Assembly (NCBI RefSeq): GCF_032854445.1
Contig: NC_088300.1
Location: 2,728,001-2,792,000, forward strand
Direction: 5' to 3'
DNA: 64,000 bases
DNA from: Liolophura sinensis
Lineage: Eukaryota; Mollusca; Polyplacophora; Chitonida; Chitonidae
Of this stretch, positions 3,001-24,957 are shown piece by piece. The position numbers and the translations under genes were made by a program. Numbering within the stretch: the first letter of the stretch is position 1; every line of letters starts with the position of its first letter. The notes beneath the pieces were generated by a model. It saw nothing but the letters and a program-made list of their open reading frames with translations. It ran no database searches and was not told the origin of the DNA.

Positions 3001-3742
3001 TAATGTATTACAGTCTACCACACAGAGCCAGCTGTTGTCAAACAAGGAGAGGCAGTCTGTGAATTCAGGCACATGATGACCTAATGTATTACAGTCTACC
3101 ACACAGAGCCAGCTGTTGTCAAACAAGGACAGGCAGCCTGTGAATCCAGGCACATGCTGACCTAATGTATTACAGTCTACCACACAGAGCCAGCTGTTGT
3201 CAAACAAGGACAGGCAGTCTGTGAATCCAGGCACATGATGATCTAATGTATTACAATACCCCAGTCTACCACACAGAGCCAGCTGTTGTCAAACAAGGAC
3301 AGGCAGTCTGTGAATCCAGGCACATGATGACCTAATGTATTACAATCCCCCAGTCTACCACACAGAGCCAGCTGTTGTCAAACAAGGGCAGGTAGCCTGT
3401 GAATCCAGGCACATGATGACCTAATGTATTACAGTCTACCACACAGAGCCAGCTGTTGTCAAACAAGGAGAGGCAGTCTGTGAATCCAGGCACCTGATGA
3501 TCTAATGTATTACAGTCTACCACACAGAGCCAGCTGTTGTCAAACAAGGACAGGCAGCCTGTGAATCCAGGCACCTGATGATCTAATGTATTACAGTCTA
3601 CCACACAGAGCCAGCTGTTGTCAAACAAGGAGAGGCAGTCTGTGAATCCAGGCACCTGATGATCTAATGTATTACAGTCTACCACACAGAGCCAGCTGTT
3701 GTCAAACAAGGACAGGCAGTCGGTGAATCCAGGCACATGACC
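1..3742. repeat. 81-bp satellite array with ~575-bp higher-order period
   Basis: About 46 head-to-tail copies of an 81-bp unit run from the window edge to 3742, so the true array is longer. Most units differ by a few recurrent substitutions. A variant junction with an extra C-rich stretch (CAATCCCCCAGT or CAATACCCCAGT) recurs at 412, 988, 1060, 2104, 2679, 3254 and 3343. Several of these spacings are 575-576 bp, and the same sub-variant recurs at 1150 bp, so blocks of seven units have been copied as higher-order repeats. Because 81 is a multiple of three, one minus-strand frame stays open across many units (a 27-residue repeat). The recurrent substitutions change residues in that frame (D/G, G/E, H/Y), which argues against coding. 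The array lies just 3' of the ZC3H14 polyadenylation region. Confidence 0.97.
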
Positions 3743-4352: not shown

Positions 4353-7300
4353 CTGAAACAAGGGAAAACATTGTCATAGCAAGTCCTTTGTTCAAAACCA
4401 AACTTAATATTCTTACATTCTTATTTCACCCATCGACGTGGTGGTTTCATTTTTATTCCTCATGAAGTGAGTGTTTTAAATGAAGTCTGTTGAAGAACTA
4501 GCAAATGTCATAGTTTTCTATGATGATTTTCTTTCAGAAGAAGCACATCAAGTTGAAGTTTTTCCACAGTAAATATTACATATTACAAAATATTACTTCA
4601 GAAGATATGCTTAAAATATATATACATCAGTGTTTAACAATTTCACTGTAGTTTGGGGAAATATAAGTCCACATGAGTGTACACTTACCTTAGGGTGTGA
4701 GAAGGGACAACTCATATTGGTACACTTGGGGAAGAATTTACACTTGGGTTTGGTGGGGTTGACAGCTGGTCTGATAGGGTTAGGCGCAGCCACTGGGTAC
4801 AACACAGCCGTCGCCTGAGGGGGCAGGGAAATGTCTGAAATACAAAACCATGACAGTGTGCATGTATGTGTTGACTTGTACTGGGTACGTCCACTAAAAA
4901 ACAAACGGCTATACTATAGGAAGGCCTGACTCAACTTTCCTTTCCTGTTTTCTCTCCCTTAGAATACATTTACTACAGGGTTTGCACAGGTCCTTGAAAA
5001 CCTGGAAAGTATGTGAATTTTTTTTAAGAAATTCCACACCTTGAAAGTCCTTGAAAGTGCTTGAATTTCAGGGGGCTTAATGATGTTAATGTCACAGACG
5101 TGAAAAAGTAAAGCAGTATAAAACCTTTCATGTTTTATCGTACTTGTGCCTGGTTTACTTTCCACGCCATCTTCAGTATCCGCTCCAGGCCGCAACTTGG
5201 CTGACTCATATCTTGCAGCATCTTAGTGTTACTGTCCAGGGCTGTGTACATACCCCTAAGTTTGTGGGGCCTCCGTGGCTCAATTGGCTAGAGCTCTAGC
5301 GCAGCGTAATGACCTAAGAGCCTCTCACCAATGCGGTTGCCGTGAGTACAGTCCAGCTCATGCTGGCTTCCTCTTTGGCTGTATGTGGAAGTTCTGCCTG
5401 CGGATGGTCGTGGGTTTCCCCCCGGGCTCTGCCCGGTTTCCTCCCACCATAATGCTGGCCGCCGTCGTATAGGTGAAATATTCTTGAGTACGGCGTAAAA
5501 CACCAATCAAAATTAAAAAAAATAAATAACCAAAGTTTGCAGACCTGGATCATGGATATTTATCGTACAGCCGAACATGTTGCCATCTTGACTGGCACAG
5601 ATAAACACACAGCATACCTAACAAACTAGAGATTAACCTGTTCAGCATAACTGTGATAGGGGCGGTAACTCTTGACAAACAACCCATGTCGCCTGGGACA
5701 AAATGGCGAGAGTGCACATAAATTTTTTATTGTAGGAAGTTAACAGATGAAGGTGAACAACAGCCCAATCGCCAAATATTGTACACAAACTGGGGAATTT
5801 CACACTTGAGGGTGGTGTCACGTGGTAAAGGAGCTTTTCACAGTGGAGTGGGAAGTTAAGAGATGAAGGTGAACAACAGCCCAACCGCCAATTATTGTAC
5901 ACAAACTGGGGAATTTCACACTTGAGGGTGGTGTCACGTGGTAAAGGAGCTTTTCACAGTGGAGTGGGAAGTTAACAGATGAAGGTGAACAACAGCCCAA
6001 CCGCCAATTATTGTACACAAACTGGGGAATTTCACACTTGAGGGTGGTGTCACGTGGTAAAGGAGCTTTTCACAGTGGAGTGGGAAGTTAACAGATGAAG
6101 GTGAACAACAGCCCAACCGCCAATTATTGTACACAAACTGGGGAATTTCACACTTGAGGGTGGTGTCACGTGGTAAAGGAGCTTTTCACAGTGGAGTGGG
6201 AAGTTAAGAGATGAAGGTGAACAACAGCCCAACCGCCAATTATTGTACACAAACTGGGGAATTTCACACTTGAGGGTGGTGTCACGTGGTAAAGGAGCTT
6301 TTCACAGTGGAGTGGGAAGTTAACAGATGAAGGTGAACAACAGCCCAACCGCCAATTATTGTACACAAACTGGGGAATTTCACACTTGAGGGTGGTGTCA
6401 CGTGGTAAAGGAGCTTTTCACAGTGGAGTGGGAAGTTAACAGATGAAGGTGAACAACAGCCCAATCGCCAAATATTGTACACAAACTGGGGAGTTTCACA
6501 CTTGAGGGTGGTGTCACGTGGTAAAGGAGCTTTTCACAGTGGAGTGGGAAGTTAACAGATGAAGGTGAACAACAGCCCAACCGCCAATTATTGTACACAA
6601 ACTGGGGAATTTCACACCTGAGGGTGGTGTCACGTGGTAAAGGAGCTTTTCACAGTGGAGTGGGAAGTTAACAGATGAAGGTGAACAACAGCCCAACCGC
6701 CAATTATTGTACACAAACTGGGGAATTTCACACTTGAGGGTGGTGTCACGTGGTAAAGGAGCTTTTCACAGTGGAGTGGGAAGTTAACAGATGAAGGTGA
6801 ACAACAGCCCAACCGCCAATTATTGTACACAAACTGGGGAATTTCACACTTGAGGGTGGTGTCACGTGGTAAAGGAGCTTTTCACAGTGGAGTGGGAAGT
6901 TAAGAGATGAAGGTGAACAACAGCCCAACCGCCAATTATTGTACACAAACTGGGGAATTTCACACTTGAGGGTGGTGTCACGTGGTAAAGGAGCTTTTCA
7001 CAGTGGAGTGGGAAGTTAACAGATGAAGGTGAACAACAGCCCAACCGCCAATTATTGTACACAAACTGGGGAATTTCACACTTGAGGGTGGTGTCACGTG
7101 GTAAAGGAGCTTTTCACAGTGGAGTGGGAAGTTAACAGATGAAGGTGAACAACAGCCCAACCGCCAATTATTGTACACAAACTGGGAATTTCACGCTTGA
7201 GGGTGGTGTCACGTGGTAAAGGAGCTTTTCACAGTGGAGTGGGAAGTTAACAGATGAAGGTGAACAACAGCCCAATCGCCAAATATTGTACACAAACTGG

Positions 7301-10300
7301 GGAGTTTCACACTTGAGGGTGGTGTCACGTGGTAAAGGAGCTTTTCACAGTGGAGTGGAAGTTAACAGATGAAGGTGAACAACAGCCCAACCGCCAATTA
7401 TTGTACACAAACTGGGGAATTTCACACCTGAGGGTGGTGTCACGTGGTAAAGGAGCTTTTCACAGTGGAGTGGGAAGTTAACAGATGAAGGTGAACAACA
7501 GCCCAACCGCCAATTATTGTACACAAACTGGGGAATTTCACACCTGAGGGTGGTGTCACGTGGTAAAGGAGCTTTTCACAGTGGAGTGGGAAGTTAACAG
7601 ATGAAGGTGAACAACAGCCCAACCGCCAATTATTGTACACAAACTGGGGAATTTCACACTTGAGGGTGGTGTCACGTGGTAAAGGAGCTTTTCACAGTGG
7701 AGTGGGAAGTTAACAGATGAAGGTGAACAACAGCCCAACCGCCAATTATTGTACACAAACTGGGGAATTTCACACTTGAGGGTGGTGTCACGTGGTAAAG
7801 GAGCTTTTCACAGTGGACATCTGAGAAGGAGCTCACTGACCAACATCAGGGTCACCTTGGTCTTTACAACTGCCCACAAAATGAGTTTAGAGTTGCTCTC
7901 AAGGGAGTTTGTCTTTCAAAAATGGCAAAAAACAACAATGTCATTCACACACATCGTCATGGATGGTGTTTACGCCATGTCCACATTTCGCTTCAGTTTT
8001 GAATTCTGGTAGGTTCTTGAATTTAGTCTTTTATGTCCTACAAAGTCCTGTAAGGTCCTGAAATTTATTTTCTTATCTGTGCGAACCCTGTTACTAAGCT
8101 GTGCTGTGTCAAATCATGATAACAGTGTAGAGCACCTCTCACTGATAAACATACACTCATCCTGTTACAGGCCTACTTCCTACTTCACAAACTTGTCCGG
8201 CTCACACAGGAAGTCAGTCGTGTCGATACAGCTTCGAATTGGACAATATGACATGAACCATCCAAGAATATTTTGTTGATGGATTTTTCTTGCATGTGAG
8301 GCATTTTGGCCATTTGAACAGAGAATGGGTCTGCGTTTATCATGTATGTTTAATCCGTGTCAATTGTCGTGTCAAAAATGGATTGTAGCGCAACATCTTC
8401 AGTGTTACAATGTCCTTTTTGTAAAGTAATCATGATGACATCAATAAAATGGTGTCAAAGGTCAGACTATTGGGCATTTGTCAGGCCTCCATTAGAATCC
8501 ACACTGAGGTATTATGTGCTGATATTAGGAGTATATATGGGGTCCAACATCAGCTTAAGTTCAGAGATTGTAACAAAAGATTACATCTTGCTACCCTTCC
8601 ATCTGTTTGCACTTGTGCGATATATTTGTGCAATTTACCAGTAAGCCATTTGAGTGACCACTGCTTTTATCTACACGATTCTACCGGAGAAAATAAATGA
8701 AAAAAAAAGCCAAATCTGATACAAAAATTTTAATGCATAGGCCTTTAGAAAAGGTTAACTTTTGGAGCACGTTCATCTCCTTGTCTGACTACTGGATTTT
8801 AATCACCTGAACACAGCACTAAATACCACCACTTTCACAGATATGCTCATAAAAGTGCTAATAATTCAATGCCACTTTCATGTCTATTTCATCCATTTTT
8901 CTACACTAAGCGGCACTAAGCCCTAATCATCAATTTATCTACGCGTAATATAGAATTATGTATTTCCCCAACACTGATAACTGCTATTTACGTGTACCGA
9001 GACTACTTACATTGTGGTACAGCCTGCCTTATACCCGCGGGCCTCTTGCTGGCGTGGGTGAAGGGACAGTCAGGTTTGGTACACTTGGCATCATACTTAC
9101 AGTTGGGGTGTATATAGAGACATTTGTCCCCAAACTTACAGTTAGGGAATGAGCTGTGAAGAAATGAAAGAACGAGATTAAAAATACACTCGGCACCTTG
9201 TGCCACGCTCTGTTCCATATACACTTGTTAAGAAGCCATGATTTTCAGACTGTGCTACATGTACTAGTGTTGGACCATCCCTTTAACTGGATTTACACTC
9301 AGGTGGAGACTTAAAAGACAGAGTGTACAGGAGTGATGATATGAACACAGACTCCTATTAGCACAGGCGAATCAGAATTTACACTCAGACGGGGGCTCAC
9401 CGACACGGTGTGCAGGGGTGATGATATGAGCACAGACTCCCATTAGCACAGGCAAGTCAGAATTTACACTCAGATGGGGACTCACCGACAAGGTGTGCAG
9501 GGATGATGATATGAGCACAGACTCCATTAGCCACAGGCAATTCAAGAATTTACACTCAGATGGGGGACTCACTGACAAGGTGTACAGGGATGATGATATG
9601 AGCACAGACTCCCATTAGCACAGGCAATTCAGAATTTACACTCAGATGGGGACTCACTGACAAGGTGTGCAGGGATGATGATATGAGCACAGACGAGTCA
9701 GAATTTACACTCAGATGGGGACTCACCGACAAGGTGTGTAGGGATGATGATATGAGCACTGATTCACATTAGGACACGTGAGTCAGAATTTACACTCAGA
9801 TGGGGACTCACTGACAAGGTGTAACAGGGGTGATGATATGAGCACAGACTCCCATTAGCACAGGTCAGTCAGAATTTACACTCAGACGGAGATTCACGAC
9901 AAGGTGTACAGGGGTGATGATATGAGCACAGACTCCCATTAAGCACAGGCAAGTCAGAATTTACACTCAGACGGGCACTCACTGACAAGGTGTGCAGGGA
10001 TGATGAGATGAGTACAGACTCCCATTAGCACAGGTGAATCAGAATTTACACTTAGACGGAGATTCACCGACAAGGCGTACACAGGGGTGATGATATGAGC
10101 ACAGACTCCCATTAGCACCGGTGAATCAGAATTTACACTCGGATGGGGACTCACTGACAAGGTGTGCAGGGATGATGATATGAGCACTGATTCCCATTAG
10201 CACAGGCGAGTCAGAATTTACACTCAGATGGGGACTCCACCGACAAGGTGTGCAGGGACCATGATATGACCACAGACTCCCATTAGCACAGGCGAGTCAG

Positions 10301-13300
10301 AATTTACACTCAGATGGGGACTCACCGACAAGGTGTGTAGGGATGATGATATGAGCACTGATTCACATTAGCACACGTGAGTCAGAATTTACACTCAGAC
10401 GGGGACTCACTGACAAGGTGTACAGGGGTGATGATATGAGCACAGACTCCCATTAGCACAGGTCAGTCAGAATTTACACTCAGACGGAGATTCACCGACA
10501 AGGTGTACAGGGGTGATGATATGAGCACAGACTCCCATTAGCACAGGCAAGTCAGAATTTACACTCAGACGGGCACTCACTGACAAGGTGTGCAGGGATG
10601 ATGATATGAGCACAGACTCCCATTAGCACAGGTGAATCAGAATTACACTCAGACGGAGATTCACCGACAAGGTGTACAGGGGTGATTGATATGAGCACAG
10701 ACTCCCATTAGCACAGGTGAATCAGAATTTACACTTGGATGGGGACTCACTGACAAGGTGTGCAGGGATGATGATATGAGCACAGACTCCCATTAGCACA
10801 GGCGAGGTCAGAATTTACACTCAGATGGGGACTCACCGACAAGGTGTGCAGGGACCATGATATGACCACAGACTCCCATTAGCACAGGCGAGTCAGAATT
10901 TACACTCAGATGGGGACTCACCGACAAGGTGTGCAGGGATGATGATACGAGCACTGATTCCCATTAGCACAGGCAAGTCAGAATTTACACTCAGATGGGG
11001 ACTCACCGACAAGGTGTGCAGGGATGATGATACGAGCACTGATTCCCATTAGCACAAGGCAAGTCAGAATTTACACTCAGATGGGGACTCACCGACAAGG
11101 TGTGCAGGGATGATGATACGAGCACTGATTCCCATTAGCACAGGCAGGCCAGAATTTACACTTCTCTGTTTTCTTGTTACTTGTAACAGCCATGGAAGAA
11201 TCCTCCTCGTCATCATTTTCAGCTAAGAGAAATAGATCACATAACAATAAACACCATATCTATTAATTTATTTGATTGGTGTTTTACGGCGTACTCAAGA
11301 ATATTTCACTTACACAACAGCCACCAGCAATTATATTGCTAACCCCCTCGGCCATAGAATGAACACCATAGGACAATGGGGTAATATAATACTGTGTGTG
11401 TCAATGAAAGTTTGGGATAAAATGTACTTAAACAACTCAAATTCAGATACCACAACTCATAAGCACAAAATCAATCTACATACATAAATATTTTAAGCAG
11501 CCATTGCAGGGAAACCAACGACCTACTAGAATCAAGGAAATCACTAAACGTGCAAACTTGATGCACAGGTTGGGCGGATTTTCAAAACTGATCTGGGGTT
11601 CCACGCAAATCAACCTGCACACAAAATGTTACCAAAATGAGAGGATATACATGTATGCAGCAGTTATTGCATGGAAAGCACAGCATGACGGACAAACAGA
11701 GAAACCCTAATTAATATCCCCAACTATGGAATAATTTAAAAGCCAGAAAATACAGGTACATGTTTAAGGGCCACAGCAGAAGAATTTGGTTGTATTTTTT
11801 GCATATAAACTACAGATGGTAGTGTACAGATGTGTAGCGTTACACAACTGTCCTTTACTATGTGTTCTTGTGAGGTTAACAACCTGTGCACTGGTACTAA
11901 CGATCTTTTCACACTGAATAACTGATCTCATATTAACAGATGATACACTTGCCATCTGATCCTGTGAGGTTGATGGACACGGTCTCCACTTTCTGCCTCT
12001 TTGGCAGCACATGAACGATGGGGACAACACTGCCCACATTACTGACACTGGACACAGAGCTACTGTCATCCACATCTGTGGGTGGATCTTTGGCTTCAAA
12101 CTTGAGGGGATCAACCCCGTCCAGCGTGACAATAAACCTTGTTTTATCTATCTCCTCTGCAGTTTTACTGAAACACAATCAACAAAATAATGAAAACTGT
12201 GATTTGCACCTGGCTAACACATATTCTGCTGCAACAAAACCATTGTCATATATTACATGGTCTTTTTGCATTTGACAGGAGCATTATTACAAATAATCAT
12301 CAACTGAAATTATTTTGCCCCATGTCTTATTGCCCATGTCTTATTAGTCCAAATTCTCATTCACAGTAAAAGAATTTACTCCAAATACACGTCTGAGAGA
12401 ATCACAATATCTTCCCTACAATTGCTGTAAGCTTTTAAATAGATAGTGGAGCAAATCAAACGGCCTCCAACAAAAACCAAAAGCTACCTGAGCTTGCTAG
12501 GCTATACACCATGTCCCACCTAAATATCATTCTCTTTCTCTAATCTCCTTCACTATTACTGTACCAGTTTCCCCGCCATTAACGGAATTGAATAATTCTA
12601 GCTGTCACCAAAAGCCTGATGCAGTATTAATAAAGTACACTACCACAGAAATACATGTCACCACACAACTACAAATGCATCTGAGCTGTAATTCTTCAAC
12701 TCTTTTGTGTGTTTACAAGATGTTTATACAAGCATACAAGGCATGATAAAATTACATGTTTTGTGAAGCCCTGAAATTGGCCAATTCAACCAATGTAGTT
12801 TTGTTTCTAAAATCAAATAAGGATGCACATAAATTGCCCTGAATGGCGCTATTTCATGTGCTAAAAGGTTGAGATTTACGGTACAATCATTCGATTTTGC
12901 TGCATAAGTTATGAGGATGTTGTCTCGGCAACATTTTATCTTGTCAAAAAGACAGATGGAGAAAAAATGAATATCTCAGCTAAGAAACTAAACTATCCAG
13001 ATATAGAACCATTTCCAAGATGCAGCCCATAAAAGATATTTGGTGTACATATACGTTGACAAACAAATCAAAATGACAGGAGAGAACACGACACTTATGG
13101 AAGCTGAAAGTTACAGAGTTCCAAGAACATTTGTAAGTTTACAGCTGAACTTATCTGGCAAAAACAAAACAAAAACACAAAAAAATAAAATTATCAGAAA
13201 GCCACCTCAACCTACATTCAACACACTCAAAAGCGCCAGTGGAGTTTCATGCCAGTATGAATAAACATACTCTAAAACTTACTCTTGCTGGACGAACCTT

Positions 13301-16300
13301 TTAACAGATTGGGCAGAAACTTTGGCTTGCTCCCTCTGAGAAGGTTCTACCTCAGCTCTGGGTGGAACCAACTGAGTGGGCGTGTAAGTAACGACAGGTT
13401 CCTTCTGTCTGGCCTTGACAATGACAGGCTCCGCCTTGACTAGAAACAGCTCCTCCTCCACTTCGTCTCCTTCTGTTTCCATATGGCCTGACAGCTCTTG
13501 ATCATTCTGTACCTGTAGGAGGTCTCCACCTTCAACCATCTCCACCACCTCTTCACCAGCTTCCTGTTTGTAAACATACGCGACATCTACCAGCCTGCTG
13601 TCGTTATAATCAGTGGGATAATCATTCTCCTCCATCACATCCTCCACTCTGACCTCTGGTGTTTTGCCAGATACTTGCTTCACCAAGACATGCTGCTCTG
13701 CAGTGTCCATTTCTGGCTCTGCAACAAAAATAGTGGACTTCTCAAATTGTATGATATACACACCACACATTTCAAGATGCAGCATGTGTCCTCTGGAAGA
13801 AAAGTTGCCTTCACTTGAAAATTTTGAGAATAATGTAAAAATAAATTAACTGGTTTAAGTGGCTGACTGGATAACAACAATTTTCAGAAATATTTCTTTC
13901 CTGCACCCACATCAGACATCAAACACACATATTAGCCTTCTTTTATTTGCCAACCTACACACACATTAGCCATCTCAATTCACTCATCCTACACACGTAT
14001 TAGCCATCTTTTATTAGCCATCTTACACACACATTAGCCATCCTACACATGTATTATCTATTTTATCTTAGCCATCCTACACACACATATCAGTCATCTT
14101 TTATTAGCCATCCTACACACACATTAGCCATCCTACACATGTATTATCTATTTTATCTTAGCCATCCTGCACACACATATCAGTCATCTTTTATTAGCCA
14201 TCCTACACACACATTAGCCATCCTACAAACATATTAGCCATCTTATTTTAACCATCTTACAAAGGTATTAGTCATCTTTTATTAGCCATCTTACACACAC
14301 GTTAGCCATCCTACACATGTATTAGCCATCTTATTTTAGCCATCCTACACACATATTAGTCATCCTGTATTAGCCATCCTACACACACATTAGCCATCCT
14401 ACACACATATTAGTCAGCTTTCATTAGCCATCCTAAACACACATAAGCCATGCTACACACATATTAGCCATCTTATTTTGGCCACCCTACACACGTATTA
14501 GCCATCTTTTATTAGCCATCTTACACACACATTAGCCATCCTTCACATATATTGGCCATCTTATTTTGGCCATCCTATACACATTTTAGTCATCTTTTAT
14601 TCCCCATCCTACACACATTAGCCATTTTATTTTGGCCATCCTACACACATATTAGCCATATTATTTTGGCCATCCTACACACATATTAGTCATCTTTTAT
14701 TAGCCATCCTACACACACATAAGCCATCTTTCACACATATTAGCCATCTTATTTTGGCCATCCTACACACATATTAGCCATCTTATTTTGGCCATCCTAC
14801 ACACATATTAGCCATCTTATTTTGGCCATCCTACACACATATTTGTCATCTTTTATTAGCCATCCAACACACATATTAGCCATCTTATACTGGCCATCCT
14901 ACACACATACTAGCCATCTTATTTTGGCCATCCTACACACATATTAGCCATCTTACTTTGGCCACCCTACACACACAGGTGCCATCCTACACACATATTA
15001 GCCATCTTATTTTGGCCATTCCTAACACACAGAAGTCACTCTACACACATATTAGCCATCTTCTATACATATTGTTTTACAATTTACACCATGACTAGAC
15101 AGAGCCTGGGGGAAACCCACAACTATCCCAATATTGCTGGCAGACCTTCGCTCCCATCTTATATTAGGCATCCTACACACATTCATGTACATGTATTAGC
15201 AATCCTTCACACATATTTGCCATCCTTTAACCAGTGCAAACACATATAAGCCATTAGAAAACAACAGTTTGAAACGTTAGTTTGACTCAGATTTGAGTTT
15301 ACAGAAAGAGTTCTCATGCTTACCCTCACTAACACTGCCCTCCTCACTAAGGTGTTCAGGGTCTACAGGAGCAGAGGGCTGTAGAAAACAACAGCTGGAA
15401 ACGTTGGTTTGACTCAGATTTGAGTTTACAGAAGTTCTCATGCTTACCCTCGCTAGCACTGCCCTCCTCACTAAGGTGTTCAGGGTCTACAAGAGCAGAG
15501 GGCTGTAGAAAACAACAGCTGGAAACGTTGCTTTGACTCAGATTTGAGTTTACAGTAGGAGTTCTCATGCTTACCCTCGCTAGCACTGCCCCCATCACTA
15601 AGGTGTTCAGGGTCTACAGGAGCAGAGGGCTGTAGAAAACAACAGCTGGAAACGTTGGTTTGACTCAGATTTGAGTTTACAGAAGTTCTCATGCTTACCC
15701 TCGCTAGCACTGCCCTCCTCACTAAGGTGTTCAGGGTCTACAGGAGCAGAGGGCTGTAGAAAACAACAGCTGGAAACGTTGGTTTGACTCAGATTTGAGT
15801 TTACAGAAGTTCTCATGCTTACCCTCGCTAGCACTGCCCTCCTCACTAAGGTGTTCACGGTCCACAGGAGCAGAGGGCTTTAGAAAACAACAGCTGGAAA
15901 CGTTGGTTTGACTCAGATTTGAGTTTACAGAAGTTCTCATGCTTACCCTCGCTAGTACTGCCCTCCTCACTAAGGTGTTCAGGGTCTACAAGAGCAGGGG
16001 GCTGTAGAAAACAACAGCTGGAAACGTTGATTTGACTCAGATTTGAGTTTACAGAAGTTCTCATGCTTACCCTCGCTAGCACTGTCCTCCTCACTAAGGT
16101 GTTCAGGGTCTACAAGAGCAGGGGGCCGTAGAAAACAACAGCTGGAAACGTTGGTTTGACTCAGATTTGAGTTTACAGAAGGAGTTCTCATGCTTACCCT
16201 TGCTAACACTGCCCTCCTCACTAAGGTGTTCAGGGTCTACAGGAGCAGAGGGCTGTAGAAAACAACAGCTGGAAACGTTGCTTTGACTCAAATTTAGTTT

Positions 16301-19300
16301 ACAGAAGGAGTTCTCATGCTTACCCTTGCTAACACTGCCCTCCTCACTAAGGTGTTCAGGGTCTACAGGAGCAGAGGGCTGTAGAAAACAACAGCTGGAA
16401 ACGTTGGTTTGACTCAGATTTGAGTTTACAGAAGTTCTCATGCTTACCCTCGCTAGCACTACCCTCCTCACTAAGGTGTTCAGGGTCTACAGGAGCAGGG
16501 GGCTGTAGAAAACAACAGCTGGAAACGTTGGTTTGACTCAGATTTGAGTTTACAGAAGTTCTCATGCTTACCCTCGCTAGCACTGCCCTCCTCGCTAAGG
16601 TGTTCAGGGTCTACAGGAGCAGGGGGCTGTAGAAAACAACAGCTGGAAACGTTGGTTTGACTCAGATTTGAGTTTACAGAAGTTCTCATGCTTACCCTCG
16701 CTAGCACTGCCCTCCTCGCTAAGGTGTTCAGGGTCTACAGGAGCAGGGGGCTGTAGAAAACAACAGCTGGAAACGTTGGTTTGACTCAGATTTGAGTTTA
16801 CAGAAGGAGTTCTCATGCTTACCCTCGCTAGCACTGCCCTCCTCGCTAAGGTGTTCAGGGTCTACAGGAGCAGGGGGCTGTAGAAAACAACAGCTGGAAA
16901 CATTGGTTTGACTCATATTTGAGTTTACAGAAGGCGTTCTCATGCTTACCCTCGCCAGCACTGCCCTCCTCGCTAAGGTGTTCAGGGTCTACAGGAGCAG
17001 GGGGCTGCTGCAATACTTCACGCTTCAGTGACCTCATGATCTCGTCATGCTTGGACCGCGTGAACAGCGACCTTGATTTAGCCGTCACTCGTTCTACCAT
17101 TCGGCCAACAGGTATGTATGCACTGCCTAAAATCAAACAATGTGATAAAAAACTGGAGATGCACACAACCACTAACTAATAAAAACTGTGCTGGCTACAA
17201 CAATAAAGATACAGCATGCTAAACAGCCTATTTCTACTGGGTAGGGTAGAATGTAAATAAATAACCATTTAGGAGTGACCAGGTTTATAATTCAGCTTTT
17301 GTCACATACACTCTATACACATATATACTTCCCTAACCTCAGAAAGTTTTCACGTATTTCGTTACTTTATGCTTGACATCGCTTTTGACATAGACACATT
17401 ATTTCAGTCATCTCTGCATAATGATATCATATATTCAAACTCTTACAGATACCATCTATACCTCTCAGCACTCAGTATATTCAATATGACAATGCTGGTA
17501 TGACTGCTCTTTAGCTCAAAGCCATTTTTATACCCCAAGAAGACAGCCGAGAACTTTCTTTGTATTTTTACAGGTTACAGGCAAGGCAAAAAACTACGAG
17601 AAGGTTGTCAGTGACAGCTAATACTGAGATGCCTTTTGGCAGAAATATAGGAAAGATAGGAAGTTTTGAACAAATATAAGAAAATATAGGAGGATCTGGA
17701 AAATAAATGAAAATATAGGAAATACAGGAAGACTCTGAGGCCTGTTTACTAAATGCCGGCAATAAAAAGATGCAGAATCATCACTGATTGTTTGCTGTAA
17801 GAGATACGCAAGTTCAGGCTAAGTATAAGTACTACATTTATTCAAGAGAGGCCAAGGTTGCAGGCTTTAGCCCAGGATAGCCTATCTCCCCTGCCAGCCA
17901 ATCAGCGTCAATTCTGTATCCCTTCAACTGGAGTCATGAACATGATATGTTTCCTGTAATGTTATGTTTTCATGTAACCTTGTACATGTATGACTTACCA
18001 GATACCACAGCCTTGTTTCTGCTCACAGACTTAGTTGCCTCATCCACTGCCCTCATCAGCAGAGACTTGTTTGCCTGCAGATTGCGAGGCACACTGGATC
18101 TACAGTACAAAAGTATAAAGGACATCAATCACCCAGTACTTCCACCCCTCTCATAAAACTGACAGCTCTAATACTCTTCATAAGAATACCTGTAAATGAA
18201 GTCTTTCTTAGGTTGAATACGAGACAGGAAATACTGTTTATTGCCTTTCGATTCAGTTGGCACCAAATCTGTCTTTGTAAACCCTAACCATTCAATCACT
18301 TGAATACAAAACTTCACATTCACATTATCCTTTGTTAAGATTTTTAATCAATGCTTTTGAACACTGACTATTCATTATTTTTTTCAGAATGCAAAATCAG
18401 AAATTAAAATTTGTGAAAAAATTTGTTGCTGACCTTCTGGCGCTGACCTTGACAACACTGGCAACACTGCCGACAGCGGGGTTCAATGGGTCATACTCCT
18501 CCTCCTCCTCAGTCTCCTCGACCATTCGGCGAGTCTTCACTGTTCCCAGTACAGAGCCCGGCATCCTTCTCTTGATCGCTGTGCTGGAGCCGGTTATAGC
18601 CTGTAACACCACAACAGATATCATATATGGAAGTCAACAGACTCATATGTCAGGAGGAGATATCACACATGGAAGTCAACATTCACATGTCAGGGGGAGA
18701 TATCACACATGGAAGTCAACACTCACATGTCAGGAGGAGATATCACACATGGAAGTCAACACTCACATGTCAGGGGGAGATATCACACATGGAAGTCAAC
18801 ACTCACATGTCAGGGGAGATATCACACATGGAAGTCAGCACTCACATGTCAGGGGGAGACATCACACATGGAAGTCAACACTCACATGTCAGGAGGAGAT
18901 ATCACACATGGAAGTCAACACTCACATGTCAGGGGAGATATCACACATGGAAGTCAACACTCACATGTCAGGGGGAGATATCACACATGGAAGTCAACAG
19001 ACTCACATGTCAGGGGGAGATATCACATATGGAAGTCAACAGACTTGCATGTCAAGGGGAGATATCACACATGGAAGTCAACAGACTCACATGTCAGGGA
19101 GAGATATCACACATGGAAGTCAACACTCACATGTCGGGGGAAGATATCACACATGGAAGTCAACACTCACATGTCAGGGGGAGATATCACACATGGAAGT
19201 CAACATTCACATGTCGGGGGGAGATATCCCACATGGAAGTCAACACTCACATGTCGGGGGGAGACATCACACATGGAAGTCAACACTCACATGTCAGGAG

Positions 19301-22300
19301 GAGATATCACACATGGAAGTCAACACTTACATGTCAGGGGGAGATAACACACATGGAAGTCAGCACTCACATGTCAGGGGGAGATATCACACATGGAAGT
19401 CAACACTCACATGTCAGGGGGAGATATCACACATGGAAGTCAACACTTACATGTCAGGGGGAGACATCACACATGGAAGTCAGCACTCACATGTCAGGGG
19501 GAGATATCACACATGGAAGTCAACACTCACATGTCAGGGGGAGATATCACACATGGAAGTCAGCACTCACATGTCAGGGGGAGATATCACACATGGAAGT
19601 CAACACTCACATGTCACATGGAAGTCAACTATTACAAAGCCAATGCAATGAATTCTTCCAATACCAAAAAAGCTGGGTACAATACTGTGATACAGGGCAC
19701 AGTGTGAAGACAGGGCACATATGAAGACTGGGCACAGTGTGACGACAGGGCACAGCATGAAGACAGGGCACGATATGAAGACAGGGCACTGTCTAAAAAC
19801 ATGGCAAGGTATTAAAGCAGCGCAGAGTGTGAAAACAGGGCCCAGTATGAAGACAGGACATAGTGTGAAGACAGTGCATTGTGTGAAGATAGGGCACGGT
19901 GTGAAGACAGCGCATGGTGTAAAGAAAGGGCCCAGTATGAAGACAGGGCACAGTGTATGAAGACTGGTTGCAGTGTGAAGACAAAGTACAATATGAAGTT
20001 ATGGTAGTGACAGGGAGCATGCTTGTTGGGTAATAGGCAGTTATGGGTAGTACTGTAGTTATAGGCAGTATGGTAGTGACAGGGAGCATGGTAGTTTTCA
20101 GGGATTATAGCAGTTATGGGTAGTATGGTACTTATGGGTATTATTGTAATTACAGGGAGTAAGGTAGCATGGTAGTTACAAAAGTGCACTCTGCTTACCC
20201 TTCTGGGAGGATCCCTGCTGGGTACTTGGTAAACTTGATCCTCGTCTTGTATGGACACCTTCCTGCTGGAGCTTGCAACACGACTAGACAAAGGAGCTTT
20301 GGACATATCCGTCATGGCACCTAGACGGGATGAGAGTGGAACAGACCTGACCACCACAGCCTCTGTAGGCTTTGTAGTGGGGACCAAGGGTGTTATCCGA
20401 GCAAACACTGTAGTTGATCGCCTGGTAACCTGAGCAGACTCCTCTAGTGAAGGGAGATTACTCTTTGGGCTGCTCATGGTAGCTGGCCTCCCCTTGGACG
20501 CCTGTTTCTTGGCCTCCTCTGCCTGTGCTGCCCTCTCTGCCTCTTGTGAAAACTCTTCACTGAATTCATCTGATGACACATACGTATAATAGTAGTATTA
20601 TGCAAATATGAAGATTATTTTTACACCACAAAAAAAATGATGACAGAACAGCTTTTATCACCCTTCTGACATATGGGCCACAGGGGCAGCTGGGTTTTAA
20701 TATTCCTGCATAATCTAAAGGCAATGTCCTGTGTAGACTGATAAAATTATACATTTTGCGCCACCCTGAAATTTGTCAATCTAACCAATGTAGTTTTGTC
20801 TCCAAAATTAAATTAAAAATTGGCATAAATTGCACTGAAAGTTGCTTTTCATATGTGAAAATGTTGAGGAATTAGGGTCATCTTCATGAACAGGCAGTGA
20901 CAAGGATTGAACAGTATCACAAAACACTGCTGTAACCATAACACTGCACCACATGCCATGTTCCTTGAACATATCATTGTGGTAGAAACTGGAAGTCACT
21001 AAGTCCACCACAATCAAACTTTACTTTAAAGTGATTTTCCGATCAGAAGTAAGAATTTGTGTTAATGTCATGAATATGAGGAAAGTTAACTTCATTCATA
21101 AAAGTTGACAAGCATAACGTCTCTTTTTTTCTGATAGATGGGGTATATTATTCAGAAAGTTTCCAGCTGTCATAGTTACCATATTCAGCTTTGACAGTGA
21201 ACTCTGGCTCCTCGTCTTCTTGTGAGACCTTTGTTGCCGTGGTAACCTCTGTCTCCTCCTTACCCTCTTCCTCACTGTGTGTCTCACCAGTTGCATGATC
21301 CTCAATTACATGTTCCTCAGCTTCATCTTGGGAAGTTTTAGTCACTTTTGTTAATGCCTGTGCCTCAAGAGGTTTGGACTTACTGGACTGAGAGCTCTTC
21401 TGCGTTTCACTGTCAGTCCCTTCAGCCACTTCAGACTTAGCCACTGTCTTGGGAGTGGCCTTGTGTGACTTGTGAGCAGTTGTACTTACAGAAACTGCAG
21501 GGCCTTTTTCTCGTGAAGTTTCCCTCATAACCTGTGATGGTTTGTGAGGTTTACTCACTGTTTCTTTGACTTTAGCAGGCGGTGAGGTTTTCTCTGCTTT
21601 TTCTGTTGATTTCCTATGAATTGACTTGGTACTCTTTTTGTCTGTGACCTTTTCTGTTGTTTCTTTTACAGCCTTTGCAGACTTCTCTACAGCTTCTTTC
21701 TTTTTTGATGCTGAAATATTAACCAAATAATAAACTCCATACTGGTGATTTGTAACCTAAACAATTAGATTAACATTCGTGACAATCAATCTCCCTGTGT
21801 TTAATAAAATAAACAGTGATAGTCAAACCCTTGTCAGATAGTTTGTTTGGAAATCCTGATATTTTTGGTGTGTCAAATTCACTTCATGCCAGCTATAACT
21901 CCAAGGCACCAAAAATTTCAGGGTCGGTAACTCTGGTACATTATAACATATCATACACACTGGGCTGCTAGCTGTACTTTCTCTTTATCAGTTTATAATC
22001 AGGTTAGTTTTAAGCACTTGAAGCCTGCTACACTCCTAAAATACAAACAATCTGTAAAGTATATATACTTACACACTGAAATAGACTGCAACCTGACCAG
22101 AAGGTTCTGTAACCTAGAAACAATGACAAAAAGTGCAAGACACTTCTTTTAGTTGTGGCTATTTGTATGAGATAAAGTCAAGGTGTGGTAAGAAGCCTGA
22201 GAATATCCCCAAACTATGTACTGATTTGATGTTGTACATCATCTTGGAGAATATTTCATTTATATAACAAATAGCTGTAGGGGGCCTTGGTGGCTGAGGG

Positions 22301-24957
22301 GGTCAGCCCCAGCAGGGCTCAAATACCCAGCAGCTTCTCACCAATGCAGTCACTGTAAGTTCAAGTCCAGTTTATGCTGGCTTCCTCTATGGGCGTACGT
22401 GGGAAGGTCTTCCAGCAACCTGCAGATGGGCGTGGTTTTCCCTCGAGCATTGCCTGGATTCCTCCCACCATAATGCTGTTGTGTTAGTGAAATATTCTAC
22501 AGTACGGCATAAAACACTAATCAAATAAATGTATAACTAAATCAAATAGCTGTGAGGTTCTCTTTGGTGGAGATAGCCTTTAGCCAACAGAAATGGTAAA
22601 GTTATTGATCAGTTAAACGGGTGTAAGGTATTTGTCCTCACAATACAGCTTCCATGCCTTCAGGACACTTAAACATACATATGTGGAAGTTAGAGCCGAA
22701 TAATGAGGATGTCCATCAAAGTTTACTTTCTTAGGACATAAGAGTGTACCCATTTTCAAGAGTATTTATTCTGTCTTCAGCCCAGAGTAAGCTGTGACAC
22801 TTTTCCAGGTACCTGACAAAACGTCTGACTAAAACTGCAAACAAACAAGCAGTACATTTCAATCCACGGCCTTATGGGTCGAGGAATGATCTCCTGTGCT
22901 GACAGAGACATTTAAGGAATTCTCATTATTAAGATCAAGTAAAACATGAAGGCAGAAAACGACAACAAAGCTGGGAATTTTTTCCCATTATTAAACACAC
23001 AACTGTACAGAAAGCACTGCACAGTACCATAAAGTAAACTTTTCTGTGTTTGCTCCCAGAAAAAGGTTCAAGTCTTCTGTCATGGCAGCCTGGCTTTTCT
23101 TGTTAGCAACCATGACCATGATGTAATCTGGCAGTTCCTCATCTACCAAAAACAATAAAAATAAATGAAAAAAATACTAATTTCTGAAACAAACAAACCA
23201 ATATTCAAACTACTAGATTTCTCCTCAAACGTATGCAGTATTTGGGTGTCATGGGTTTTAAACCACATACAATTTTCATAATCGTGCTCAAGTGCCTTAA
23301 TTTATCTTTCTAATTAACTTGGCATAAGGTTTGAGTTTACGGAAGATAAAGTATCAATTAGAAGTTTTTCCAGTACAGCAGAACTGAAGATATTAATGTT
23401 AATATTACTCACCCACATATGCTCCAAGTTCCATTAGTTTTGACTTTATTGCAGACTGCATATGAGGAGAGAATCAAAATCATTATATATGTATTAGCAA
23501 ACCAAGAATCTGCTGTATTTCATTTCATGGGTTTAAGAGCATAAGTGTCCTGTGTAACTATTACTATAAATGACCTCAAATTTCATCCATGATTCAGCTG
23601 CTTATTTTTCCTGATTCTGAGAGTTCTATTTACCTTAGGTGTTCTAAAGTTTGTTTGGACAGTACAAATATCCTACAATAAAATATATAAAGCCAATTAT
23701 CTGCCTCTGAAAATGCACTTTGGGACAAAATTTTAGGTCATTTACAGTGGATACCATAATCTTTCTAACAGTGGCTGATCTGTAGTGGTGTTTTAGTACC
23801 ATTTTAAGATGCGACAACCACAAGCTAATGTGTACAAAACTGTAACTACCACAGAACTTTGCAAATGTCTGGTGAAAGCATTTCAACACAGGGTTAATTG
23901 ATTTAAAATAGCCATTAAAGACAGATTTCAACCACACAGGGCCACATAAAATTATGGGGTGGAAAGATTAAAGGGTGGTGTATAGATTGAGAAAAAAAAA
24001 ACCCAAAAGGACAAACGAAAAATCTGCATCTTAGAGAATAGCCTGCTAAATGCTCTGCTTATGCTCTCGGAGGTTTTTTCCAGTAAAAGTGTGATCCCCT
24101 GAGCTATTAATTGCCAATTATGAAAATGTCAGGTAGGAAATGGTATAGAGCTTTTAAGTGTGGACAGGAAAATCCTCAACATTTCCTTTTGGGAATAGAC
24201 ATCTATTACATGATGTATCATTAATACTAGGCCTATTAGAAATACAAGTTCTCGGGAGTTCCGTGAGCTGGCACATGTTCTGGAAGTTGAGGTTAGAAAA
24301 CGTTCCATTCGCCCAACGCTCATGCACGAAGACCGTGTACCGCAAAGGTTCTAACCCAAACTTCCGGTATATGCACGAGTGCTCCCACGCGGAACTCCCG
24401 AGAACCCATATCTCTCACAGGCCCTATACATGTACTAGAGGTGATTCACTGGGACTGAAGTCAGTCGTCTGACACCAGGCCAATGCTTAAGCCAAAGGTT
24501 GATTATTAATGAAGATTAAACCAGAAATGTACAGTCCGGACTGTCAGTGACAAAATAAAAATACCGATGGGCAGTCAGATAGTGAGACAGTGTCCAACGA
24601 CAGAATTTCTAGCGTGGCCCACGTCAACAAAAGAAACCACTTTTTGGGTCATAATGTAGGCTTGAATGTTAAAACGTAATAGAAAAGCGTAAATGGGTAC
24701 TCATCCCATCGTAGAATAACACACATTTCTCAATTCAGGAAAAAACATTAATGTAAAAAAACTCTTGCAAATAACGAGAATTGGTCGCTTGGTGGTGCGT
24801 GGTCCATAGCGAAAACAACAACAACCTCTGTAATTTACGCCCTAAAGACAGGACACGTTGAGTTAGTCGGCAAACCTGGCTTAAACAGACATTAAATAAA
24901 AGTTTAAAGCTTTTCGTTTACCCTTATTTTGTGGCTTATTTCCGTGCCGATCTCCAT
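4224..24957 (-). CDS. ZC3H14: ZC3H14 (Nab2-like), nuclear poly(A) RNA-binding zinc-finger protein, 15 exons
   Basis: Fifteen exons (24922-24957, 23413-23455, 23028-23142, 22073-22113, 21180-21710, 20199-20569, 18434-18600, 17999-18099, 16950-17126, 13283-13718, 11953-12167, 11093-11222, 9011-9153, 4689-4834, 4224-4352) join in compatible phase to 926 codons plus TGA. Residues 1-78 match the N-terminal PWI-like fold of the ZC3H14/Nab2 family (start MEIGTEISHKIR, then ELPDYIMVMVANKKSQ). A long charged linker follows. A basic patch near the start of exon 7 resembles the family's nuclear localisation region. A conserved RFIVTLDGV block lies in exon 11. Five C-terminal CCCH fingers sit at about 766-782, 787-803, 806-821, 867-882 and 886-902. 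In this family the fingers bind polyadenosine and the protein restrains poly(A) tail length in the nucleus. It is longer than human ZC3H14 (736 residues as I recall), mainly in the linker. Extra alternative exons cannot be excluded; introns are packed with tandem arrays. Confidence 0.95.
4689..4834 (-). CDS. ZC3H14: ZC3H14 exon 14: zinc finger 4
   Basis: Starts in phase 1 after TGTATTTCAG and ends at AAG|GTAAGT. Encodes a proline-rich spacer and finger CKFFPKCTNMSCPFSH (CX5CX4CX3H). A second AG twenty bases inside (CCCCTCAG) would also splice, but only the outer acceptor keeps frame with exon 13. Confidence 0.93.
5266..5527 (+). mobile_element. SINE family 1, full-length copy
   Basis: tRNA-like head (GGGGCCTCCGTGGCTCAATT carries an A-box-like block), a B-box-like block near GTGAGTACAGTCC, a body with the hairpin CCCGGGCTCTGCCCGG, and the 3' tail TTGAGTACGGCGTAAAAC followed by AATAAATAA. 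Short flanking matches (AAGTTTG) suggest a target duplication. It is nested in the TIR element at 4976-8090. Confidence 0.85.
5736..7817. repeat. 116-bp tandem array, about 18 copies, each with an E-box
   Basis: Highly homogeneous 116-bp units (a few single-base indels near 7185 and 7360). Every unit holds the palindromic hexamer CACGTG within GGTGTCACGTGGTAAAG. The array is internal to the TIR element. The repeated 66-residue minus-strand frames found here are by-products of repetition. Confidence 0.95.
8097..9010. other. Unique intron sequence, ZC3H14 intron 13
   Basis: AT-rich intron between the transposon and exon 13. I see no repeat, RNA or coding signal in it. Confidence 0.5.
9011..9153 (-). 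CDS. ZC3H14: ZC3H14 exon 13: zinc fingers 2 (end) and 3
   Basis: Acceptor TCTTCACAG, donor GTAAGTAG. Encodes NCKFGDKCLYIHPNCKYDAK and then CTKPDCPFTH, the most conserved pair in the family (CX5CX5CX3H then CX5CX4CX3H). The first cysteine of finger 2 is supplied by exon 12. Confidence 0.96.
9288..11092 (-). repeat. ~85-bp tandem array derived from the zinc-finger-1 exon and its 5' splice site
   Basis: About 22 units. On the gene's strand each unit reads TGTAAATTCTGACTTGCC, through CATCATCCCTGCACACC, to TTGTCG|GTGAGTCCCC. It therefore copies the last ~66 nt of exon 12 (which has TGTAAATTCTGGCCTGCC) plus about 19 nt of the following intron. The tryptophan codon TGG is TGA in the units I compared. 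Units nearest the exon (10920-11092) share its AATCAGTGCTCGTAT; several distal units have AGTCTGTGCTCATAT, so divergence tends to grow with distance. Nearly all units keep the GTGAGT donor. Lengths vary slightly through small indels, and one unit near 9680 is shortened. Confidence 0.92.
11093..11222 (-). CDS. ZC3H14: ZC3H14 exon 12: zinc finger 1
   Basis: Acceptor TTTCTCTTAG, donor CG|GTGAGT. An acidic start (ENDDEEDSS) precedes finger 1, CKFWPACANGNQCSYHH (CX5CX5CX3H). The exon ends in phase 2 and joins exon 13 to give CRSFPNC. It is the parent of the adjacent 85-bp array: if its donor is missed the next codon is TGA. Confidence 0.93.
11266..11334 (-). mobile_element. SINE family 1, 3'-tail fragment
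   Basis: Only the tail (TTGAGTACGCCGTAAAAC-like, with AAATAAATTAATA) is present in antisense orientation; the tRNA-like head is absent. Confidence 0.75.
11335..11952. other. Unique intron sequence, ZC3H14 intron 11
   Basis: No repeat or gene signal recognised between the SINE tail and exon 11. Confidence 0.5.
11953..12167 (-). CDS. ZC3H14: ZC3H14 exon 11 with probable GC-AG donor
   Basis: Acceptor GTGTTTCAG. Encodes the conserved RFIVTLDGV block and a serine/aspartate-rich stretch (VDDSSSVSSVSNVGSVV). No GT donor keeps frame with exon 12, but GATG|GCAAGT is a strong match to the GC-type 5' splice consensus and leaves exactly the one base needed for exon 12. Confidence 0.85.
12168..13282. 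other. ZC3H14 intron 10
   Basis: Mostly unique AT-rich sequence, with one R2 dispersed-repeat copy at about 12730-12890. Nothing else recognised. Confidence 0.5.
12730..12890. repeat. Dispersed repeat R2, copy 1
   Basis: Aligns in the same orientation with about 20715-20885. Shared blocks include GATAAAATTA, CCCTGAAATT, AACCAATGTAGTTTTGT and CATAAATTGC. Both copies are in ZC3H14 introns. Family unknown. Confidence 0.7.
13283..13718 (-). CDS. ZC3H14: ZC3H14 exon 10: acidic linker
   Basis: Acceptor TTTTTGTTGCAG, donor GA|GTAAGT. Encodes about 145 residues rich in E, D and V (for example VEDVMEENDYPTDY, EGDEVEEELFLVKAEP), with no domain I can name. In phase with exons 9 and 11. Confidence 0.88.
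13905..15075. repeat. Degenerate short minisatellite (TAGCCATCCTACACACA-type)
   Basis: Dozens of 17-25 bp units built from TAGCCATC and CTACACACA/CATATTAG modules fill most of ZC3H14 intron 9 next to the exon-9-derived array. A longer compound period is visible around 14049-14240. Confidence 0.92.
15095..15160 (-). mobile_element. SINE family 1 body fragment
   Basis: Antisense match to the SINE body (AGCCTGGGGGAAACCCACAA, then TGCTGGCAGACCTTC). It has no head or tail. Confidence 0.5.
15250..16949 (-). repeat. ~124-bp tandem array of exon-9 copies with splice sites on both sides
   Basis: Thirteen complete units of 124 (sometimes 127) bp. On the gene's strand each reads TGTTGTTTTCTACAG|CC, then 55 nt nearly identical to the 3' end of exon 9 (coding PVDPEHLSEEGSASE in the parent frame), then G|GTAAGC, then ~69 nt of intron. 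The parent exon at 16950-17126 has TATTGCAGCAGCC instead of TTTTCTACAGCC, so the duplication junction created a polypyrimidine tract and AG exactly where the exon copy begins. Inclusion after exon 9 (phase 1) would read to TGA within eight codons, and 55 nt is not a multiple of three. Confidence 0.93.
16950..17126 (-). CDS. ZC3H14: ZC3H14 exon 9, parent of the 124-bp array
   Basis: Acceptor ATTTTAG, donor G|GTAAGC. Encodes a basic stretch (RMVERVTAKSRSLFTRSKHD) and ends PVDPEHLSEEGSAGE. It joins exon 10 in phase to give GEEPEMDTAE. Confidence 0.9.
17127..17998. other. ZC3H14 intron 8
   Basis: Contains an A-rich stretch with repeated AAATATAGGAA at about 17640-17720 and R1 copy 2 at 17830-17945. 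Otherwise unremarkable. Confidence 0.5.
17830..17945. repeat. Dispersed repeat R1, copy 2
   Basis: Same-orientation partner of the copy at 4104-4215, by eye about three quarters identical over ~95 bp. Confidence 0.7.
17999..18099 (-). CDS. ZC3H14: ZC3H14 exon 8
   Basis: Acceptor TGTACTGTAG, donor G|GTAAGT. Encodes SSVPRNLQANKSLLMRAVDE and a lysine/serine-rich end, collinear with the vertebrate segment around KQANKNLILKAISEA. This is one of the best-conserved linker blocks. Confidence 0.92.
18434..18600 (-). CDS. ZC3H14: ZC3H14 exon 7: basic patch and glutamate run
   Basis: Acceptor TGGTGTTACAG, donor AG|GTCAGC. Encodes AIKRRMPGSVLGTVKTRRM (basic, in the position of the family's nuclear localisation region), then EETEEEEEYDP. 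An earlier donor AAG|GTCAGC is in the wrong phase for exon 8. Confidence 0.9.
18613..19625. repeat. ~41-bp minisatellite abutting the exon 7 acceptor
   Basis: About 25 units of 40-42 bp (CACACATGGAAGTCAACACT...CATGTCAGGGGGAGATAT). The last unit ends roughly 20 bp from the 3' splice site of exon 7. On the gene's strand each unit holds GTGTTGACTTCC, a branch-point-like YTNAY. Long plus-strand frames across this array are repeat artefacts overlapping antisense exon 7. Confidence 0.95.
19690..20165. repeat. Short-unit minisatellite downstream of the exon 6 donor
   Basis: First ~18-20 bp units of GTGTGAAGACAGGGCACA type (19690-19995), then units of GGTAGTTATGGGTAGTATGGTAG type (20000-20165). It ends about 35 bp from the exon 6 donor. 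Confidence 0.9.
20199..20569 (-). CDS. ZC3H14: ZC3H14 exon 6
   Basis: Acceptor GTGTCATCAG, donor AGG|GTAAGC. Encodes a helical acidic/alanine-rich start (DEFSEEFSQEAERAAQAEEA), then a serine/threonine/proline-rich region, ending SRDPPRR. In phase with its neighbours. No named domain. Confidence 0.9.
20715..20885. repeat. Dispersed repeat R2, copy 2
   Basis: Same-orientation partner of the copy at 12730-12890. It lies in ZC3H14 intron 5. Confidence 0.7.
21180..21710 (-). CDS. ZC3H14: ZC3H14 exon 5: long lysine/serine-rich exon
   Basis: Acceptor TAATATTTCAG, donor G|GTAACT. 531 nt encode a lysine/serine/threonine-rich then glutamate-rich disordered region ending EPEFTVKAEYG. The reading frame would stop just after the donor, which supports splicing there. 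Largest exon and the main reason the protein exceeds vertebrate length. Confidence 0.88.
22073..22113 (-). CDS. ZC3H14: ZC3H14 exon 4: end of PWI-like domain
   Basis: A 41-nt exon with acceptor TGTTTCTAG and donor GT|GTAAGT. It encodes LQNLLVRLQSISV, completing FTLWLQNLL, which aligns with the vertebrate FTVWLHGVL. Confidence 0.9.
22281..22530 (+). mobile_element. SINE family 1, diverged full-length copy
   Basis: Head GGGGCCTTGGTGGCTGAGG, B-box-like GTAAGTTCAAGTCC, tail GTACGGCATAAAACACTAAT with AAATAAATG. Inserted in ZC3H14 intron 3 antisense to the gene. Confidence 0.8.
23028..23142 (-). CDS. ZC3H14: ZC3H14 exon 3: core of PWI-like domain
   Basis: Acceptor TTTTTGGTAG, donor ATG|GTACTG. 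Encodes EELPDYIMVMVANKKSQ and MTEDLNLFLGANTEKFTL, which match ZC3H14 of vertebrates almost residue for residue in the first block. Confidence 0.96.
23413..23455 (-). CDS. ZC3H14: ZC3H14 exon 2
   Basis: A 43-nt exon, acceptor CATATGCAG, donor G|GTGAGT. Encodes SAIKSKLMELGAYV, the second helix of the N-terminal domain. Confidence 0.94.
24228..24430. repeat. Imperfect ~200-bp hairpin (foldback) in ZC3H14 intron 1
   Basis: GTTCTCGGGAGTTCCGTG (24248-24265) pairs with CGCGGAACTCCCGAGAAC (24388-24405). Similarity continues inward (GGAAGTTGAGGTTAGAA against GGAAGTTTGGGTTAGAA) and outward (GGCCTATTAGA against GGCCTGTGAGA). Confidence 0.7.
24922..24957 (-). CDS. ZC3H14: ZC3H14 exon 1 with start codon
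   Basis: AAAATGGAG gives MEIGTEISHKIR, which is the family N-terminus; donor AGG|GTAAAC. The start is fixed by alignment to known ZC3H14 N-termini. Confidence 0.95.

Follow-up and report, generated by a model that had tools for sequence, protein, structure and literature searches.

A tandem array of exon-end copies in the ZC3H14 gene of the chiton Liolophura sinensis, most probably a neutral minisatellite of accidental pseudo-exons

We have analyzed a stretch of 64,000 nucleotides from the chiton Liolophura sinensis (assembly GCF_032854445.1, contig NC_088300.1, positions 2,728,001 to 2,792,000), which we call the window and whose positions we use throughout. The window carries on its minus strand a ZC3H14/Nab2-like gene, and following exon 9 of this gene there is a tandem array (array A) of 13 copies of the exon end. 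Each copy has the exon 9 donor, and almost all of them also have an acceptor that exon 9 itself lacks at that place. We find it most probable that array A is a neutral minisatellite lying across an exon/intron boundary, the units of which are by accident strong pseudo-exons, and that the whole array is removed with intron 9. An earlier sequence-only reading of this DNA had proposed an array of regulatory exons instead. The two interpretations agree on most of the anatomy, and they part ways on what the anatomy means.

The gene model has 15 exons and an open frame of 926 aa. The modelled protein has the Nab2-type zinc fingers, and it is 99% identical over its whole length to the deposited "zinc finger CCCH domain-containing protein 14-like isoform X2 [Liolophura sinensis]". 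This isoform X2 is one predicted isoform. It differs from our model in an earlier donor ending exon 10, and in a C-terminus that runs on into exon 16, just outside the start of the window. Isoform X2 joins exon 9 straight to exon 10 (...EEGSAGE/EPEMDTAEQ..., where the slash marks the junction) and includes no copy. It uses one donor of the array region, that of the parent exon, and none of the array's acceptors.

Tandem Repeats Finder (TRF) reports array A together with the parent exon end at 15255-17007, with score 3064, period 124, 14 copies, and 95% matches. Similar units repeated head to tail with a period of 124 fit the definition of a minisatellite. A unit length of 124 bp, which had been given for all units, is right for 8 of the 13, while four units have 127 bp and one has 126 bp. 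A search of the 609-Mb assembly, with simple repeats and very common words omitted, finds array A once. Assembling tandem arrays is difficult and there is one assembly only, so that one could suspect array A or its copy number to be wrong; but the copies differ from each other (94.8% mean identity) and the edges of the array are distinct, and we regard an assembly artefact as having only a slim chance.

The edges are informative about the origin. At the left break the parent exon reads GCAG/CAGCC, with no base shared at the break, and at the other end the sequence runs out of the last unit as TTTTCTA/ATGGC; because of these two readings, the acceptor is limited to the joins between units. Anatomy and breakpoints agree with what had been deduced from the sequence alone: they support that array A arose by tandem duplication across the end of exon 9, and that the acceptor was created at the junction. 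The founding duplication had its left break 58 nt before the end of exon 9 and its right break about 69 nt into intron 9, and unequal exchange or slippage may have lengthened the array afterwards. At the join, the pyrimidine-rich intron stretch TTGTTTTCTA came to lie beside an exonic CAG, which makes an accidental acceptor, and the exon 9 donor was inherited by each unit. With an acceptor at the join and an inherited donor, 12 of the 13 copies are therefore complete 55-nt pseudo-exons.

How good are these splice sites? We scored them using a small matrix built from ZC3H14's own 12 donors and 14 acceptors, and using the pairing to the 5′ end of U1. The parent donor AGG/GTAAGC (12.0 bits) is intact in all 13 copies, so that a 55-nt exon 9 copy with the exon 9 donor is indeed found in each unit. 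The acceptor TTGTTTTCTACAG, made up by the duplication junction, stands at each unit join. In the 11 copies that read TTTTCTA/CAG it scores 4.7 bits, against -0.6 bits for the parent sequence at the same place, which bears out the claim that the acceptor is new. It outscores 4 of the 14 own acceptors of ZC3H14 and ties with two more. In total, a stretch of 1.75 kb has the same donor 9-mer 14 times and the same acceptor 23-mer 11 times. The statement that every unit has a good 3′ splice site holds for the AG in 12 of the 13 copies, and CAG is kept in 11 of 13; it fails for copy 7, where the AG is lost (CGG), and the site of copy 9 is weakened (AAG). It is then not the case, as had been stated, that splice sites are retained in every copy.

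The other non-array introns of ZC3H14 (9,807 nt) contain no pair of an acceptor (at least 4.7 bits) and a donor (at least 11 bits) 40-250 nt apart, and they yielded three pairs with weaker donors of 8.3-9.2 bits. Of all 56,980 duplications that could span the exon 9 donor, 5.7% would yield an equally good acceptor at the join; getting such an acceptor was fortunate yet unsurprising. We also considered an RNA structure that would hide the splice sites. This idea was rejected, as none of the 3 units folded (of 13) is more stable than its shuffles, with z-scores from -0.18 to 0.41.

What would happen if a copy were included? Exon 9 ends in phase 1, and splicing in any of the 13 copies results in a stop as codon 8 (13/13), in agreement with the early stop that had been predicted. 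The stop is 1,102 nt upstream of the last junction in the 15-exon model. Reading through from exon 9 into copy 1 also hits a stop within the copy. The exon sequence is closely kept, as it would be if the copies were coding, forming an in-frame protein repeat region; but the stops in 13 of 13 copies, read-through included, refute a coding use for the annotated frame, the copies are absent from isoform X2, and we give this explanation next to no chance. Splicing from copy to copy needs introns of 69-72 nt, as the coordinates give them (the minimum of ~69 nt put forward before was accurate), versus a minimum of 270 nt among the introns of the gene model. By the same coordinates, one copy alone could be spliced in without any intron under 270 nt from the third copy onward.

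In the main message, the first (true) donor would be paired with the exon 10 acceptor and the whole array would be removed; from isoform X2, we infer that the copies are as a rule skipped. If a copy were used now and then, a stop within eight codons would follow, and probably nonsense-mediated decay (NMD), which would make for a small non-adaptive leak and not a switch. Some low, destructive leak into the copies is likely. A search of the protein collection for truncated products returned 92 candidates (lengths about 294-934 aa), none at an E-value of 0.001 or better, a weak negative because the length limits shut out even isoform X2 itself.

Poison exons are cassette exons that induce NMD, and the trait of a short cassette having both an acceptor and a donor is found in 12 of the 13 copies. 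A regulatory array of such exons, in which controlled inclusion and NMD would tune the dosage of ZC3H14, and the number of copies would set the strength, is one alternative to consider. If the splice sites were under selection, one may look for it between the copies. Across copies 1-13, variable columns are 3/27 for the splice sites versus 23/100 for the others (p = 0.28), and acceptor columns alone vary in 3/18 versus 23/100 (p = 0.76). Outside of the splice sites, variable columns are equally frequent in the exonic (13/51) and in the intronic part (10/49), contrary to the claim that the copied coding frame varies little. By codon position 1, 2, and 3, the variable exon columns are 3, 5, and 5. 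The column test has low power because the copies are ~95% alike. As far as such a small sample tells, the splice sites mutate between copies at about the rate of their surroundings, the kind of observation that, for orthologous arrays, the sequence-only reading had itself named as telling against its proposal. The column test lends no support to function, yet it is compatible with one.

Complete splice sites in 12 of the 13 copies, stops in all 13, and the invariant donors are what a poison-exon array should have. Moreover, ZC3H14/Nab2 is linked to splicing, and yeast Nab2 autoregulates, according to passages of PMC12581835; but the same passages have yeast Nab2 acting through an A tract, a different element. 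Against regulation by controlled inclusion there are also the splice columns without significant excess conservation, the acceptor that has lost its AG, isoform X2, which skips all copies, and a sibling array in the same gene that has no acceptors. Considering both sides, we judge a regulatory poison-exon array to be very unlikely, and the proposal made from the sequence alone is not supported in this respect.

The sibling array (array B, 85-bp units) repeats the end of exon 12 and, including the parent, spans 9291-11162. It resembles array A in that an exon end and the adjoining donor are tandemly repeated; it differs in that its units have 69 nt of exon and 16 nt of intron, are acceptor-free, and are more diverged. 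Donors are present in array B, and no site in it reaches 4.7 bits as an acceptor. Most of these donors have decayed: the donor 9-mer is the same as the parent's in 6 of the 21 copies, and the nine donor columns have 2.1 variant cells per column, versus 1.5 and 2.25 for the remaining exon and intron parts. Together, the columns and codon positions of array A and the donor columns of array B gave no significant signal of selection. Array B also shows a higher-order repeat of 7 units, with an identity of 0.908 at lag 7 versus 0.848-0.871 at the other lags from 1 to 11. Higher-order repeats are a usual trace of unequal exchange. Isoform X2 takes the first donor at array B as well (CTPCR/SFPNC). 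One kind of event has hit ZC3H14 twice, once without a possible cassette.

Array B matters also for a second alternative, in which the copies would act as donor or splicing decoys: without being included, they would attract U1 and adjacent factors, and change how efficiently exon 9 is spliced or how often its intron is retained. The 14 identical donors of exon 9 and array A and the 21 more donor-derived sites in array B would suit such decoys, but the sites in array B equal the parent's only in the 6 copies just mentioned, and intron 9 is removed in isoform X2. We consider decoys very unlikely. A further idea combines the two arrays into a rheostat of ZC3H14 on itself. A 2024 study reportedly finds, by its title, that ZC3H14 binds exon-intron boundaries. 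Reiterated boundaries in introns 9 and 12 could then be in competition over splicing, and possibly over ZC3H14 itself. A change in protein level would change the inclusion of pseudo-exons or the stalling of splicing, and NMD would adjust the message, the copy number being an evolving dial. Yeast Nab2 autoregulates, by way of the different A-tract element (passages of PMC12581835), so that autoregulation as such is not far-fetched. Human ZC3H14 has been tied to spliceosome components (passages of PMC11788927). Still, a rheostat of this kind seems to us a long shot.

The neutral minisatellite that we favor has to be seen against how common such arrays are in this genome. We sampled 18 stretches of 10 kb, 17 of them spread over six contigs plus one adjoining the window, for arrays of at least 100 bp. 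We observe 38 arrays that cover 12.8% of the 180 kb sampled, and 12.3% in the 17 spread stretches (170 kb). A minisatellite cover of 12.8% is high for an animal genome. The window has 15 arrays that cover 21.7% of its bases. Among the 8 arrays examined in the window's part of ZC3H14, A and B alone match its coding sequence; an exon origin was rejected for the other arrays, 6 of the 8 having no such match.

Several observations count against neutrality, or at least temper it. Predicted isoform sets omit NMD products, and isoform X2 is compatible with partial inclusion of the copies. The 9 nt of the donor are invariant in 13 of 13 copies of array A, with 0/9 columns varying versus 26/118 (p = 0.20), and weak selection would be undetectable with 13 young copies. 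Array B retains the GT in all but 1 of its 21 copies, at 0.5 variant cells per column versus 1.5 for the remaining exon part. Both the donors of array A and the GT of array B lean to the side of conservation, short of significance for array A. Among 31 scored arrays (13 of the 15 in the window and 18 of the 38 sampled, all with units of at least 40 bp), array A alone has in its consensus unit an acceptor/donor pair, for an acceptor of 4 bits or more and a donor of 8 bits or more. Finally, two donor-spanning arrays occur in one gene, more than one would usually expect by chance. When the seven arrays from exon 1 to exon 15 are placed at random, the mean number of donor-spanning ones is 0.45, and the probability of two or more is 0.064; for two or more arrays spanning any exon boundary, the probability is 0.21. 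We take this as a mild hint that donors are favoured as seeds of minisatellites.

Tandem repeats carrying splice signals have precedents. The splice donors of the IFI6 minisatellite were reportedly described by Turri, Cuin and Porter in 1995. The human IFI6 gene (6-16, G1P3) has a minisatellite with multiple donors, in which downstream repeat units are used as donors (passages of PMC4526556; the reference is also in PMC2572611). As in array A, tandem repeat units carry donor sites; as far as these passages describe it, IFI6 has donors only, whereas the units of array A add an acceptor, which makes them whole pseudo-exons, unused in isoform X2. Passages of PMC3443670 and PMC4974935 deal with the gain of introns by tandem duplication, the latter with the case of a potato RNA-dependent RNA polymerase (RdRp). 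There too a tandem duplication, which in potato crosses an intron/exon boundary, supplies splice signals, but the new intron is used, while the 13 potential introns of 69-72 nt in array A are unused in isoform X2, and the array A acceptor was made at the join and not inherited. With known poison exons array A shares a short cassette with both splice sites and an early stop upon inclusion; it differs in being skipped in isoform X2, in being repeated 13 times, in having one dead acceptor, and in showing no significant excess of splice-site conservation between copies. Among the literature matches listed, no title or abstract opening describes a tandem array of whole pseudo-exons derived from an exon end, with subscription journals mostly outside the coverage.

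Array A amounts to a natural experiment on splice-site choice. One exon-end duplication followed by repeat expansion can build a bank of pseudo-exons, and selection is unnecessary for it. Such ready-made pseudo-exons are raw material for poison exons or for new introns. To judge from the second array in ZC3H14, minisatellites made of exon ends may arise repeatedly in this repeat-rich chiton genome. Chiton genomes, including that of Liolophura japonica, are covered by PMC12005716, where minisatellites go unmentioned in the 12 of 26 passages listed. The coordinates of the features are collected in Table 1.

Table 1. Positions in the window of the two arrays in ZC3H14, their parent exons, and the altered acceptors.
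Feature	Position	Strand	Description
Array A	15255..16880	-	13 copies; units of 124-127 bp = 55 nt exon copy + 69-72 nt intron (including CAG)
Exon 9, parent of array A	16950..17126	-	177 nt, phase 1 to phase 1; gene model, exon 10 junction as in isoform X2
Duplicated exonic part, last 58 nt of exon 9 (CAG + 55 nt)	16950..17007	-	
Pseudo-exon copy 1, 55 nt	16823..16877	-	Copies 2-13 lie downstream on the minus strand
Unit starts, copies 2-13	16753, 16629, 16505, 16381, 16255, 16128, 16004, 15880, 15756, 15632, 15505, 15381	-	
Intron part of the last unit	15255..15323	-	Exits the array as TTTTCTA/ATGGC; right breakpoint of the founding duplication
Copy 7 acceptor, destroyed	16126..16128	-	CAG to CGG
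Copy 9 acceptor, weakened	15878..15880	-	CAG to AAG
Exon 10	13283..13718	-	Gene model; joined to exon 9 in isoform X2, which takes an earlier 3′ donor
Exon 12, parent of array B	11093..11222	-	Gene model
Array B	9291..11092	-	21 copies; exon 12 end (69 nt) + 16 nt intron

A few other observations concern the host gene and its repeats. The end of exon 10 (13283-13310) has two candidate donors, the earlier one taken by isoform X2 (SVK/SKTAEE) and the later one by the model (RFVQQ/DKT). Intron 11 is apparently of the GC-AG type (ATG/GCAAGT, window 11953), and isoform X2 agrees on the junction. In intron 15, an 81-bp array at 1-3740 has about two acceptor-like sites (at least 4.7 bits) per unit, 96 in total. 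A 40-bp array at 18616-19616 ends 15 bp before exon 7, and has GTGAGT 19 times in about 25 units, with only 2 sites that reach 6 bits as donors.

Elsewhere in the window, plus-strand open frames at 59160-61270 resemble what we take to be a USP24-type deubiquitinase; a Pfam search of two of these frames gave nothing above the cut-off. Copies of a short interspersed element (SINE)-like sequence (GTTTTACGCCGTACTCAAGAATATTTCAC...), which we presume to be the one familiar from molluscs, are found at about 5390-5510, 11270-11340, and 22340-22530.

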